Origin: Lysobacteraceae bacterium
GTDB taxonomy: Bacteria > Bdellovibrionota > UBA1018 > JAGTJX01
Assembly: GCA_023657465.1 (NCBI GenBank)
Contig: JAGTJX010000002.1
Location: forward strand, 398,136-462,135
Reading direction: 5' to 3'
DNA: 64,000 nucleotides
Positions 7,859-45,404 of the stretch are shown one piece after another; the first letter of the stretch is position 1; every line of letters starts with the position of its first letter. The notes under the pieces are model-generated. The model did no database searches and had not been told where the DNA came from. It saw only the letters and a program-made list of their open reading frames with translations. The position numbers were made by a program, and so were the translations under genes.

Positions 7859-7956
7859 GATAGCGTCCGAAAGTCCTTGGTACAATTTTCACTTAACCTC
7901 AATTCACGATAGCGTCCGAAAGTCCTTGGTACAATTTTCACTTAACATCAATTCAC
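7859..7956. repeat. 49-bp tandem direct repeat at the end of the ISH6-like element
   Basis: Two copies (7859-7907 and 7908-7956) differ by a single base. Each contains the terminal inverted-repeat sequence (GATAGCGTCCGAAAGTCC) plus the last two codons and stop of the transposase gene, so the element end has been duplicated. Confidence 0.9.
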
Positions 7957-9363
7957 AAACTGAGCTCCAGCAAATTCAATCTTCATTTTCCCGTCTAGTT
8001 TGAGTGTATCACTCCAATATTTTTCCCATTCATTTGAATTCGTAAATCTCTTCAGAATGATCTTCGTCATCTGTGCTGCTCCCTTGGGACTCCAGTTGCA
8101 TCCGATTCGTTTGAGTCGTAGTTTTATTTCTCTCATCATGCGCTCAATGATGGAGCTCACTTTCGGAGGAGCATCCCCCGTCCTGATCCAGACTCTGACA
8201 TAGTTAAAGAGCTTTGCTTTTGCATTCTCTACATATGTCGCAGTTTGAAAATACTGCTTTTCTTTCAGATCTTTCACGAGTGCATTCATTTGCCTTTCCG
8301 CATTAAATACCGAGACCTCTAGATTTAGAATTTCTTCGGTTTTTACTTTGTCTCTTGGTTCGTTGGGTAGCGGGATTCTCATGATTTCATGAAGCTGGTC
8401 TTTCACTTTTCTGGTTTCTTCGTTATTTGCTTCATCCTGGTACTTCATCACAGACTTCAGATCATACGTCAGATGCCACTGGCAGCGCTGCTGGGTCTTT
8501 GCTAGTTTTCCTAGTCCTCGTTCAATGGCTAGTTCTCCATCACTCACTAAGAGCTCTGCTATGGGCTTAGATTTCAGCTTGGGATGGTGATTAGCCCGTT
8601 TTACGAGTCTCCCAATTTCGTTCCATTTTTCTTCATTGAAGACTCCCATGGGAATCGTTTTGCCGTGCTTGTCGATCCCTAGAATCACTCGAATTTGTTC
8701 AAGAGGTCTATTGTCAGCATCTCGTTTTGGGTTTTTCTTCTCATCCTCTTTTTGAGCGTTCGTCTTGAACCTGGGATACCCAGTTCCATCTGCAACAATT
8801 GTAACGAGCTCTTTCTGTTCCAGCTTTAAGTGAGCAGAGTCAGTCTTCTGAACCCAAGTATGGATTTTACTTTTTCCGAGTGGGTTGCCACCAATATCTG
8901 TCATGTGTTTTGCTGATCGTCTGTAGCTCTGGTGACTTGCAGTCTCGCATGCAATTTTTTCGAGTTCTAACGTATGCGACGTGTAGAGCTTAACGTTTAA
9001 AAACTGTCTTAGTGGAATGAACGATTCCTTGCAGTTTTTGCATTTGAGCCTCATCCAGTGGAATTTGATTTTTCCTATTGTAGAATCAATACGTCTTGGT
9101 TCTCTGCTCGATCTGACAAAGTAGGGAGTTTTACAGCAGGGTTTTACGTTGATGCTCGCTAATGACTCTTTTGTCTGCACTCCTGTCAGTGAGTCACAGA
9201 GATCACCATCCATCCACTCTAAAATCAGCGTTATCACTGCTGGCATTCCGTTTTTATCGAACACCTCCTTGGTTCTGATCACTAGTTCATCAAACGAAAA
9301 GGTTTCTTTTTTAATATCCGCATCCAAAAACACAGCGATCCGTCGCTTCATTTTTTCCTCCAA
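7948..9363 (-). CDS. ISH6/ISKra4-like transposase (Mutator-type DDE)
   Basis: A 471-residue transposase. The N-terminal half holds a zinc-ribbon-like segment (KPCCKTPYF and RLKCKNCKESF). The catalytic half follows the Mutator-superfamily plan: first D in IVADGTGYPR, second D in LLVSDGELAIERG followed by CQWHLTYDL (the C-x-x-H motif found in this superfamily), and a late E in SSIIERMMREIKLRLKR. This matches ISH6/ISKra4-like enzymes; I am confident of the superfamily and less so of the IS family name. The stop codon lies only eight to nine codons from the element end, inside the duplicated 49-bp repeat. It appears intact. Confidence 0.82.
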   Translation of the reverse strand: MEEKMKRRIAVFLDADIKKETFSFDELVIRTKEVFDKNGMPAVITLILEWMDGDLCDSLTGVQTKESLASINVKPCCKTPYFVRSSREPRRIDSTIGKIKFHWMRLKCKNCKESFIPLRQFLNVKLYTSHTLELEKIACETASHQSYRRSAKHMTDIGGNPLGKSKIHTWVQKTDSAHLKLEQKELVTIVADGTGYPRFKTNAQKEDEKKNPKRDADNRPLEQIRVILGIDKHGKTIPMGVFNEEKWNEIGRLVKRANHHPKLKSKPIAELLVSDGELAIERGLGKLAKTQQRCQWHLTYDLKSVMKYQDEANNEETRKVKDQLHEIMRIPLPNEPRDKVKTEEILNLEVSVFNAERQMNALVKDLKEKQYFQTATYVENAKAKLFNYVRVWIRTGDAPPKVSSIIERMMREIKLRLKRIGCNWSPKGAAQMTKIILKRFTNSNEWEKYWSDTLKLDGKMKIEFAGAQFVN

Positions 9364-9385: not shown

Positions 9386-9784
9386 CTACATGGAAAGTGT
9401 TCTCGACCCAAACAGCATCTCCTCGATACCCTTTGTGTTGTATTTGTGCCAGTAGTGCTCAGCTGCCATATGCAAAAAAATATCATCAGAAACGTCGATT
9501 TGTTCGTTCCCATTTTTTGCTTTGATCTCGCTCATCCATACATCCGCTAGTTCACTTGATGCTGGAATAAACTCTTTATTTACTTTCCTTGGCTGCCAAT
9601 CATCGTAAAACTTCACCACCTCATTCCAGTTGTGGGTTTTTACTCCGAGTCTTGCTAGTTCACTCAGAACCTCAAATGGCGTTGATTCTTCAATCCATGT
9701 GATTGCATCTCTCAATTCATTTGCAATGAATTCTAATCTTTCTTCAATCTCGATCTCTTGCTTCTTTTTCTTCCCCATTTTCAC
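9386..9784 (-). CDS. Accessory ORF of the ISH6-like element
   Basis: A 132-residue acidic, helical protein with a lysine-rich start (MKMGKKKKQEIEIEE). It sits 22 bases upstream of the transposase in the same orientation and inside the same terminal repeats, so it is an IS-encoded passenger or helper. No known domain was recognised. An identical but truncated copy of its 5' part occurs at 12467-12696, which confirms it moved with the element. Its role (DNA binding, target choice or regulation) cannot be read from sequence. Confidence 0.75.
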   Translation of the reverse strand: MKMGKKKKQEIEIEERLEFIANELRDAITWIEESTPFEVLSELARLGVKTHNWNEVVKFYDDWQPRKVNKEFIPASSELADVWMSEIKAKNGNEQIDVSDDIFLHMAAEHYWHKYNTKGIEEMLFGSRTLSM

Positions 9785-9995
9785 ATCACCATTAAATTCA
9801 GAGTGTCCAAAACGACACAGTGGCTATGTTCTTAAAGTCTGTAAAAACTTTAGACAGGTTGAATCTGAAAATCCACTCTCTTTTACTCTTAAATTGCTCA
9901 TAACGCCTGGCGCAAGACCTGCATTACTACTCAACTAAAGGGTCTTGAGGTTTTAACTACTGGGAAAATAACTTTCCTAGGACTTCGGGACAGTT

Positions 9996-12466: not shown

Positions 12467-12696
12467 CTTGATGCTGGAATAAACTCTTTATTTACTTTCC
12501 TTGGCTGCCAATCATCGTAAAACTTCACCACCTCATTCCAGTTGTGGGTTTTTACTCCGAGTCTTGCTAGTTCACTCAGAACCTCAAATGGCGTTGATTC
12601 TTCAATCCATGTGATTGCATCTCTCAATTCATTTGCAATGAATTCTAATCTTTCTTCAATCTCGATCTCTTGCTTCTTTTTCTTCCCCATTTTCAC
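12467..12696 (-). pseudogene. Truncated copy of the ISH6-like accessory ORF
   Basis: The first 76 codons are identical to the ORF at 9386-9784, then the frame runs into the IS66 right end. The last 55 residues are lost. It is a by-product of the IS66 insertion and deletion and should not be functional. Confidence 0.85.
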
Positions 12697-12910
12697 ATCA
12701 CCATTAAATTCAGAGTGTCCAAAACGACACAGTGGCTATGTTCTTAAAGTCTGTAAAAACTTTAGACAGGTTGAATCTGAAAATCCACTCTCTTTTACTC
12801 TTAAATTGCTCATAACGCCTGGCGCAAGACCTGCATTACTACTCAACTAAAGGGTCTTGAGGTTTTAACTACTGGGAAAATAACTTTCCTAGGACTTCGG
12901 GACAGTTATC
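12467..12910. mobile_element. Deleted second copy of the ISH6-like element (right 444 bp)
   Basis: This segment equals 9555-9998 with a constant offset of 2912 bases and no difference that I detected. It holds the 5' part of the accessory ORF and the right terminal repeat ending in CAGTTATC. All of the transposase gene and the left end are missing. Confidence 0.88.
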
Positions 12911-26221: not shown

Positions 26222-26252
26222 GCCTATAGTTCGCCAATCGCGAACTATAGGC
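26222..26252. repeat. Perfect 13-bp inverted repeat between convergent genes
   Basis: GCCTATAGTTCGC and GCGAACTATAGGC around CAATC. No T-run follows. A related sequence (TTCGC-GTTTG-GCGAACTAT) occurs 50 bases further on. It lies between the stops of the secreted protein and holA and may act as a two-way stop. Confidence 0.6.
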
Positions 26253-26353
26253 CACTTTCGATCATCGAATCCGCTCATTAATTCGCGTTTGGCGAACTAT
26301 GTGGTGGTGTCATTTTTGCTTGCGTGAGATTACCGTCAAAAAAAGCGAATGAA

Positions 26354-39327: not shown

Positions 39328-39783
39328 ATGAGTACAGCAAACGGTTATATCTTCAATGAGCGGCAAGATTCGCTCCCCCAAACCCTCAAACACAGGGACC
39401 ATGTCCTCGTGGAATTCCCTGATGAGCGCTTCGAAGCAGTTGTTTTTCAGTGGGATCACACTCGTCCTACGGTCGTGGTTCAGTTGAAGTTAGATGCTGA
39501 AGAACCCATCCAATTCCCTAAGAAACGGCCTAAACAAGCTGGAAACGCCGAGATGCCGGATAATCGCTATCCAGTTCTGACAGCCCAAGTCCCAGGGGTC
39601 GTGAATCCCATGAAAGCTGTGGGTTACGCAGATCCATTATACAGAGCTGATCTCGTGTTCTCAGAGCGTGCGTTCCGCGTCCTTCAGCCAGAAGATGGAT
39701 ATGTCATTCCGCTAGATAATTTGGCTGAACTCAGGGGCGAAGCAATCAAGGCGTTAGGACTGACGGATCAACCTGGATTCTGA
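39328..39783 (+). CDS. Conserved-looking soluble protein of unknown function
   Basis: A 151-residue cytoplasmic protein with no signal peptide. The first half (HVLVEFPDERFEAVVFQW and RPTVVVQLKLD) suggests a small beta domain resembling PilZ-like or SH3-like folds, but I cannot assign it. Its last codons and stop are the left arm of a 299-bp inverted repeat. ATG at 39328 has no clear ribosome site. Confidence 0.68.
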   Translation: MSTANGYIFNERQDSLPQTLKHRDHVLVEFPDERFEAVVFQWDHTRPTVVVQLKLDAEEPIQFPKKRPKQAGNAEMPDNRYPVLTAQVPGVVNPMKAVGYADPLYRADLVFSERAFRVLQPEDGYVIPLDNLAELRGEAIKALGLTDQPGF

Positions 39784-40071
39784 GCCTCTGCTACCTAGAA
39801 TCCTACATAAAACTAGTTTTCCCACTCACTTAATCTTCTTCTGAAAGAGTACAGCTCCTGCTTCACATGTCTCTCACTGCTCCTTTTCAATAAGCACGAG
39901 ATTTTATGGAGCTGGATGCGCTCCCATAAAAGGGCAGGAGCCCGTTCTAGTGCGGATTGAAAAGGAACAGGGAGCACGCATCCGCAGGCATGAGCCTCTT
40001 TCAGAAGAAGATTAAGTGAGTCTGAGAATAAATCTTAGAAGGATTCTAGGTAGCAGAGGCTCAGAGTCCAG
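39773..40071. repeat. 299-bp nested inverted repeat between convergent genes
   Basis: A perfect 25-bp arm (39780-39804 with 40040-40064), a perfect 26-bp arm (39824-39849 with 39996-40021), and an inner arm around CCTTTTCAAT / ATTGAAAAGG with few mismatches are nested in register about one centre near 39922. The outermost arm extends into the last codons of both flanking genes and includes both stop codons. It could form a very long RNA hairpin or a DNA cruciform. It has the shape of a MITE but no target duplication is evident. Confidence 0.9.
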
Positions 40072-40573
40072 AAGACTCCTCGAGTCGTTTTTCCTCAGCC
40101 GCAATCATGATCTTCGCGCAAGCAAGCGCATCGCTGAGCGCTTCATGGTGATTGAGTGGAATATCAAGCGCTCGGCACACGTCTGAAAGTTTAGTCGGGA
40201 AAATATTCCAAGCACGACGAGCGGTCACAACAGAACACGCAAATGGTTTATTGGGACGTCTAATTCCATACTTCTCGGCGCACGCATGAAGCACTCGTCT
40301 ATCAAATGAAGCGTTGTGAGCTGCGATGAAATCAATGCCTTCAAAGAGTTCAGAAATCTGAGGCCAGAGATCGCCGAAGTGAGGTGAGTCCTTCACTTGA
40401 TGCCAAGTGAGACCGTGAATGTAGGTAAACATAAATTGAGGAGAGGGAGGGCGAATGAGGTGAACTTCTTGTTTGACGATTTTGCCACTTTCGACTCGGA
40501 CGAGACCCAGTGCGCACGCGCTATCCGCTTGTGGGGTTGCGGTCTCAAAGTCGATGGCAAGGAAGTTGCTCAT
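40061..40573 (-). CDS. DnaQ-like 3'-5' exonuclease
   Basis: A 170-residue DEDD exonuclease. Motif I is FLAIDFETATP, motif II is FIAAHNASFDRRVL, and motif III is HHEALSDALACAKIM, so all four acidic residues and the histidine (DEDDh type) appear. It resembles the free-standing exonuclease domain of DNA polymerase III epsilon and similar nucleases. The last codons lie in the right arm of the large inverted repeat. It overlaps the upstream lipoprotein gene by four bases and closes that operon. Confidence 0.88.
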   Translation of the reverse strand: MSNFLAIDFETATPQADSACALGLVRVESGKIVKQEVHLIRPPSPQFMFTYIHGLTWHQVKDSPHFGDLWPQISELFEGIDFIAAHNASFDRRVLHACAEKYGIRRPNKPFACSVVTARRAWNIFPTKLSDVCRALDIPLNHHEALSDALACAKIMIAAEEKRLEESSGL

Positions 40574-45287: not shown

Positions 45288-45304
45288 TCAGACTCCTTCA
45301 CTGT

Positions 45305-45369
45305 TATCATGTTGTGGCATGGATGTGGCACGACCAATACCAATGCCACATCCATGCCACAACATGATA
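45305..45369. repeat. Perfect 26-bp inverted repeat between convergent genes
   Basis: TATCATGTTGTGGCATGGAT continuing to GTGGCA (45305-45330) is exactly complementary to 45344-45369, with a 13-base loop. No T-run follows in either direction. It likely forms a very stable two-way hairpin between the 44400 gene and the SDR gene. Confidence 0.92.
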
Positions 45370-45404
45370 GGAGACAAGTAAGTTACAAAAGCTCGGATTT
45401 TTTA

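Follow-up and report, generated by a model that had tools for sequence, protein, structure and literature searches.

A dispersed palindromic element with locus-specific inverted arms in a Bdellovibrionota genome

Introduction

How does a palindrome of almost 300 bp come to lie between two convergent genes and to reach symmetrically into the coding ends of both? This question is raised by one locus in a 64,000-nucleotide stretch of contig JAGTJX010000002.1 (assembly GCA_023657465.1), which was analysed as a whole and is called the window here. A first-pass annotation made from the sequence had considered a MITE, a stable double-stranded RNA or a cruciform stopping both transcripts. We have followed up these ideas by comparing the locus with the rest of its genome, with related genomes and with known repeat systems.

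Results

The inverted-repeat search of the window found three arm pairs around one centre near 39922, which make up a concentric palindrome (Table 1). The nested, near-perfect 299-bp inverted repeat of the first-pass annotation was thereby confirmed, with arm identities of 97%, 83% and 83% and a perfect stretch of 26 bp. When 39773-40071 was folded as RNA, as had been proposed, it reached -186.3 kcal/mol compared with -102.1 +/- 5.6 kcal/mol for dinucleotide shuffles (z -15), and 0 of 100 shuffles folded equally well. The annotation was also right that the outermost arm enters both coding ends with symmetric stop codons, since the TGA at 39781-39783 (+) and the TGA at 40061-40063 (-) occupy mirrored positions. 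The C-termini of the neighbouring proteins, which were inspected for truncation by a mirrored stop, differ among homologues.

Table 1. Coordinates of the palindrome, its parts and the adjoining genes in the window.
Feature	Position	Strand	Description
Whole concentric palindrome	39773-40071		299 bp; arm search and fold z about -15
Upstream gene	39328-39783	+	151 aa, without Pfam match; one homologue within the order (G052, 40%)
Convergent gene	40061-40573	-	170 aa, RNase_T/DnaQ-like exonuclease; orthologues differ beyond residue ~160
Outer locus-specific arm, left	39773-39804	+	32 nt, 97% with right partner; includes the final codons and the TGA stop of the 39328-39783 gene
Outer locus-specific arm, right	40040-40071	-	Includes the final codons and the TGA stop of the 40061-40573 gene
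Mismatched block between arm segments, left	39805-39823	+	Arm alignment
Mismatched block, right	40022-40039	-	Arm alignment
Arm segment pair around inner arms	39808-39849/39996-40037		42 nt, 83%, 26 perfect within
Inner locus-specific arm, left	39824-39849	+	26 bp perfect
Inner locus-specific arm, right	39996-40021	-	26 bp perfect
Dispersed core element	39847-39998	+	About 152-154 bp, GAG...CTC edges, about 14 genome places
Conserved 5' loop	39850-39869	+	TACAGCTCCTGCTTCACATG; similar motif in G039 and G295
Conserved 3' loop	39976-39995	+	ACGCATCCGCAGGCATGAGC; core alignment
Stem within core, left	39873-39901	+	29 nt, 83% with right partner; in diverged copies, both partners of pairs have changed
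Stem within core, right	39946-39974	-	Partner of 39873-39901
Tip unit	39893-39954	+	Hairpin TTTTATGGAGC-TGGATGC-GCTCCCATAAAA and hairpin GGGC-AGGA-GCCC

The centre and the arms of this palindrome have different histories. A BLAST search of the own genome with 39760-40085 gave strong matches to the middle only (query 86-240, E 1.8e-50 to 4e-7), and a covariance model of this core found about 14 places, a count that includes tip-only, tip-less and interrupted copies and leaves aside reverse-strand self-matches and the weakest hits. In pairwise BLAST comparisons, the homology between copies starts and stops at the edges of the 152-154 bp unit, and the flanks are unrelated except for one shared outer motif. 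One subfamily comprises the window copy, L030, L031 and L033 (cores 87-93% identical), another one L032, L034 and L036 (81-92%); the window copy is up to 90% identical to other copies, which among each other reach 93%. Hence, the core is a small, non-coding, dispersed unit with defined ends, as is characteristic of a MITE. The 25-26 bp arms, the search for which had been suggested as a check for a MITE, turned out to be unique to the window locus and are not dispersed. Because outer and inner arms are unique to each full copy, the whole 299 bp is not a single MITE, so that the earlier suggestion stands for the central ~152 bp and falls for the entire palindrome; the label suits the core only. 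The left flanks of the copies end in AG and the right flanks begin with CT, as inverted arms do, and a direct target-site duplication was not evident by eye.

No mobilising enzyme for the core was identified in a search of the genome for PF01797; this counts against a mobile element. The single Y1_Tnp match (PF01797, RAYT-like) lies at C2:508923, where the core model has no hit, and beside it stands another palindrome, for which about 10 matches were found; the core as the repeat of the genome's Y1 transposase was therefore ruled out by its different sequence. This transposase locus (L082, G000 C2:507500-510500) has its own palindrome GAGCGGGAAACAACGAAGTTGTTTCGTG nearby, and at L039 a copy of the latter sits inserted within the element's 5' loop. 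A phage or plasmid origin of the element found no match.

Inside the core, the 5' loop (GCTCCTGC...) and the 3' loop (GCATCCGC...) flank a stem, and the tip carries GGATGCG and GCAGGAGC, which are reverse complements of the loop motifs. Tip-like units with stems of their own stand alone at L038, L042 and L043, and L041 is a tip-less copy. Judged from the motif order, the core could be made of two units, the smaller one lying inverted within the other, and the tip-only and tip-less copies would be compatible with this.

Every full copy of the core has its own near-perfect inverted arms, which are unrelated to those of other loci. Left and right arms pair over roughly 15 to 88 nt, in one copy further at low quality, and own arms scored 26.8 on average compared with 7.2 for arms exchanged between loci. 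Only L034, L039 and L041 have arm sequence in common, because a further palindrome motif is present there: CCATACTTCACGTAGC and its partner GCTACNTGAAGTATGG occur with variation in their outer arms, concentric with the element. This shared motif suggests that a palindrome was already there before the insertion and counts against a fold-back copying of flanks. Usually, the arms in this genome consist of two near-perfect segments, the first of 20-31 bp, with a mismatched block between them, and most copies have such a block about 25-45 nt beyond the core. A single copying event does not account for this recurring block, which likewise counts against fold-back copying. A search for the source of the arm sequences elsewhere in the genome gave nothing convincing, with the exception of one related palindrome in the genome G039 (L077).

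The arms also show a relation to the adjoining genes. Among 19 copies from three genomes, with related copies pooled and stops taken from automatic ORF calls, 12 have an outermost well-paired segment whose end is no more than 10 nt away from the closest facing stop codon (median difference -1 nt, permutation p 0.014); L033, L036 and L153 break this rule. At four convergent loci the same stop triplet occurs at equal distance on both sides, namely TGA/TGA in the window, TAA/TAA at L030 and L032, and TAG/TAG at L037. Inverted copying of one gene end would be expected to leave such identical mirrored stops. According to the ORF calls, the copies L031, L034, L036, L040, L041, L048 and L058 lie beside non-convergent genes, therefore convergence is common but not required.

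The nearest genomes available for comparison belong to other families. In a phylum-wide search of 369 genomes with strict filters, matches at E <= 1e-4 were restricted to three genomes, while weaker tip-like hairpins appeared in a few further genomes of the order. A pattern scan of genome contigs gave six hits, one of them the G039 contig; the other five lack the architecture and look coding or unrelated. G039, an 'Oligoflexia bacterium' MAG of another family in the same order, harbours four related elements, and in its inner 42-bp stems 12-24 pairs changed on both sides versus 0-1 on one side per copy comparison. Likewise, the arms of L077 share homology with the L059 arms, and the differences between the two loci match on the left and right sides. 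The concerted arm changes that template switching would leave are hence found in the G039 inner stems and in L059/L077, and are not seen inside the young cores of the genome studied here. In G295, from another and more distant family of the phylum, four copies have near-identical cores of 60 nt and arms that are unrelated between loci; these arms align over 77, 44, 39 and at least 24 nt with 0-2 mismatches. This compact 60-nt version (L147-L153) has arms of up to 77 bp, and some of its contigs end close to the palindrome. The combination of young cores with long, near-perfect, unrelated arms in G295 is the strongest evidence for an origin of the arms at or after insertion.

As controls, convergent gaps of 20-500 bp (n=24) were collected from 464 kb of stretches of the same genome, the window included. 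A palindrome score of 12 or more with a short spacer was reached in 5 of the 24; none of these five is a copy of the element and none has symmetric stop distances, and the two best are members of another palindromic repeat family of an ordinary kind. In the window, another dispersed palindrome, made of TTGTGGCATGRATGTGGCA and its complement, lies between convergent genes at 45296-45378; its family is ordinary and REP-like, occupies about ten or more genome places and has short, variable outer stems. Also between convergent genes, a hairpin at 26226-26300 has a stem of 22 bp and a loop of 31 nt in which ATCCGCT occurs; it is possibly a decayed relative of the core. Other repeats of the window comprise a perfect direct repeat of 300 bp (9555-9854 and 12467-12766, 2.9 kb apart) and a 49-bp unit present twice in tandem at 7859-7956, adjoining and overlapping the end of the gene 7948-9363.

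Discussion

The explanation that we prefer, with modest conviction, is that the centre, 39847-39998, is a copy of a non-autonomous, palindromic REP/MITE-like mobile element and that its insertion, or later replication, folds back and copies the flank in inverted orientation. An inserted hairpin would make DNA synthesis fold back by template switching, at insertion or soon after, and the folded-back synthesis would copy the adjacent sequence inverted, giving rise to the arms. Where copying crosses a gene end, the stop codon would be carried over, resulting in two convergent genes with mirrored stops, and coding constraint would then limit the arm length. Template switching has been documented as maker and perfecter of inverted repeats (PMC8794818, PMC8604942), and fold-back copying as the probable source of the arms agrees with this published behaviour. 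A more specific version, in which a family of mobile elements mirror-duplicates roughly 40-80 bp of its flank upon insertion, typically up to the neighbour's stop and possibly primed by an RNA or ssDNA hairpin, is tentative and in our opinion somewhat unlikely to hold.

The chief rival, which we regard as unlikely though still serious, assumes the reverse order of events: a mobile core targets the centre of hairpins that already existed at gene ends, and the arms are older bidirectional terminators. Insertion of IS elements specifically into REP palindromes is known (PMC1525189), convergent gaps with long palindromes and without a core do exist (45305-45369, 26226-26300, L095), and the outer motif common to L034, L039 and L041 would fit as well. 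However, long palindromes are uncommon in the control gaps, the two best of which belong to the other dispersed family, and mirrored stop distances are absent among them; moreover, ordinary terminators give no expectation of mirrored identical stops, and G295 would require prior near-perfect palindromes of 44 and 77 bp.

It is less probable still, and in our judgement clearly doubtful, that ordinary compensatory selection maintains the stems of a structured RNA or bidirectional terminator here, with conservation limited to the loops. Copies adjoin stop codons, the G039 stems remain paired despite sequence drift, and both sides have changed in 17 of the 36 pairs predicted for the core. On the other hand, the recently spread cores of this genome have stem changes that are mostly one-sided (122 versus 20 both-sided, counts that are non-independent), and cores about 90% identical sit within wholly unrelated arms. 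Furthermore, selection for pairing in one RNA strand should make G-U pairs outnumber A-C mismatches, but in the arms they are no more frequent (37 versus 44, summed over arm alignments with related comparisons pooled and thus only indicative). Since G-U does not exceed A-C and the core stem changes are mostly one-sided, a DNA-level origin is favoured, yet selection on both strands would equalise G-U and A-C too. The T-run of ordinary terminators is likewise missing, as the first-pass annotation had stated: none follows the stem directly, and none occurs at either end of 39773-40071. A weak terminator-like hairpin with GTTTTTCC is located at 40074-40086, just outside the palindrome and within the second gene, and terminator-like matches were little above chance (13 found versus 9.0 +/- 3.2 expected). 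No Rfam family exceeded its gathering score, which also speaks against a conserved RNA, and a permissive Rfam scan gave chance-level microRNA and similar matches only. Integron attC sites were considered informally, and their core-site motif was not seen.

Finally, chance or an assembly artefact in the form of an inverted chimera is very improbable: amplified DNA can contain palindromic chimeras, and the G295 and G039 assemblies are fragmented with some G295 contigs ending near the palindrome, but the architecture recurs in three genomes, one of them assembled in 4 contigs, and the arms hold mismatches, run between different intact genes and fold far better than shuffled sequence.

In RNA, either strand would form one very long hairpin, by which read-through may be blocked or both mRNAs may be protected at their 3' ends. 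The palindrome could plausibly serve to end or to protect both transcripts, and the bidirectional terminator, double-stranded RNA or cruciform considered from the outset are possible forms of this role; such an effect may be a consequence and perhaps not the reason why the element persists.

The surroundings thus seem to be mirrored by the repeat or by its insertion, and this is not a behaviour of ordinary mobile DNA. If the arms arise with the insertion, a mobile element would mirror its target, which differs from the short direct duplications made by transposons, and its copies would be a natural repeated experiment on the origin of long perfect hairpins at gene ends. The disputed origin of such stems, template-switch mutation versus compensatory selection, would then become testable in a bacterium. 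If the arms predate the insertion, the element would have an extreme specificity for long hairpins.

Among known systems, several share part of these features. REPs and REPINs (PMC3116915) are likewise short, non-coding palindromes dispersed through extragenic DNA; they can fold into long hairpins as ssDNA or mRNA and are presumed to be non-autonomous. The element resembles them as a dispersed extragenic palindromic repeat, whereas REPINs are inverted doublets of conserved REPs; here, conservation lies mainly in the loops, each locus has stems of its own beyond the core, and the RAYT-like match is flanked by a different palindrome instead of the element. Bacterial MITEs such as MITEAba12 (PMC6382973) are like the core small, non-coding, dispersed units with sharp edges, but the element is flanked by sequences that mirror one another and not by short direct repeats. 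Bidirectional intrinsic terminators of convergent genes (PMC5381666) can likewise serve both genes with a single stem; in contrast, the element is far longer, has no T-run at the palindrome, contains a dispersed core and occurs also by co-directional genes. In the mitochondrial genes of Nematomorpha (PMC6649704), a single genome also contains long, near-perfect palindromes at many loci, though they lie inside coding sequence and not between genes around a shared dispersed core. Inverted repeats homogenised by template switching (PMC8794818, PMC8604942) have near-perfect, locus-specific arms with concerted changes in both, to which the element adds that such arms recur at many loci around one dispersed core and tend to end at stop codons. 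Collectively, the closest known counterpart is a combination of REPIN/MITE elements with the template-switch homogenisation of inverted repeats.
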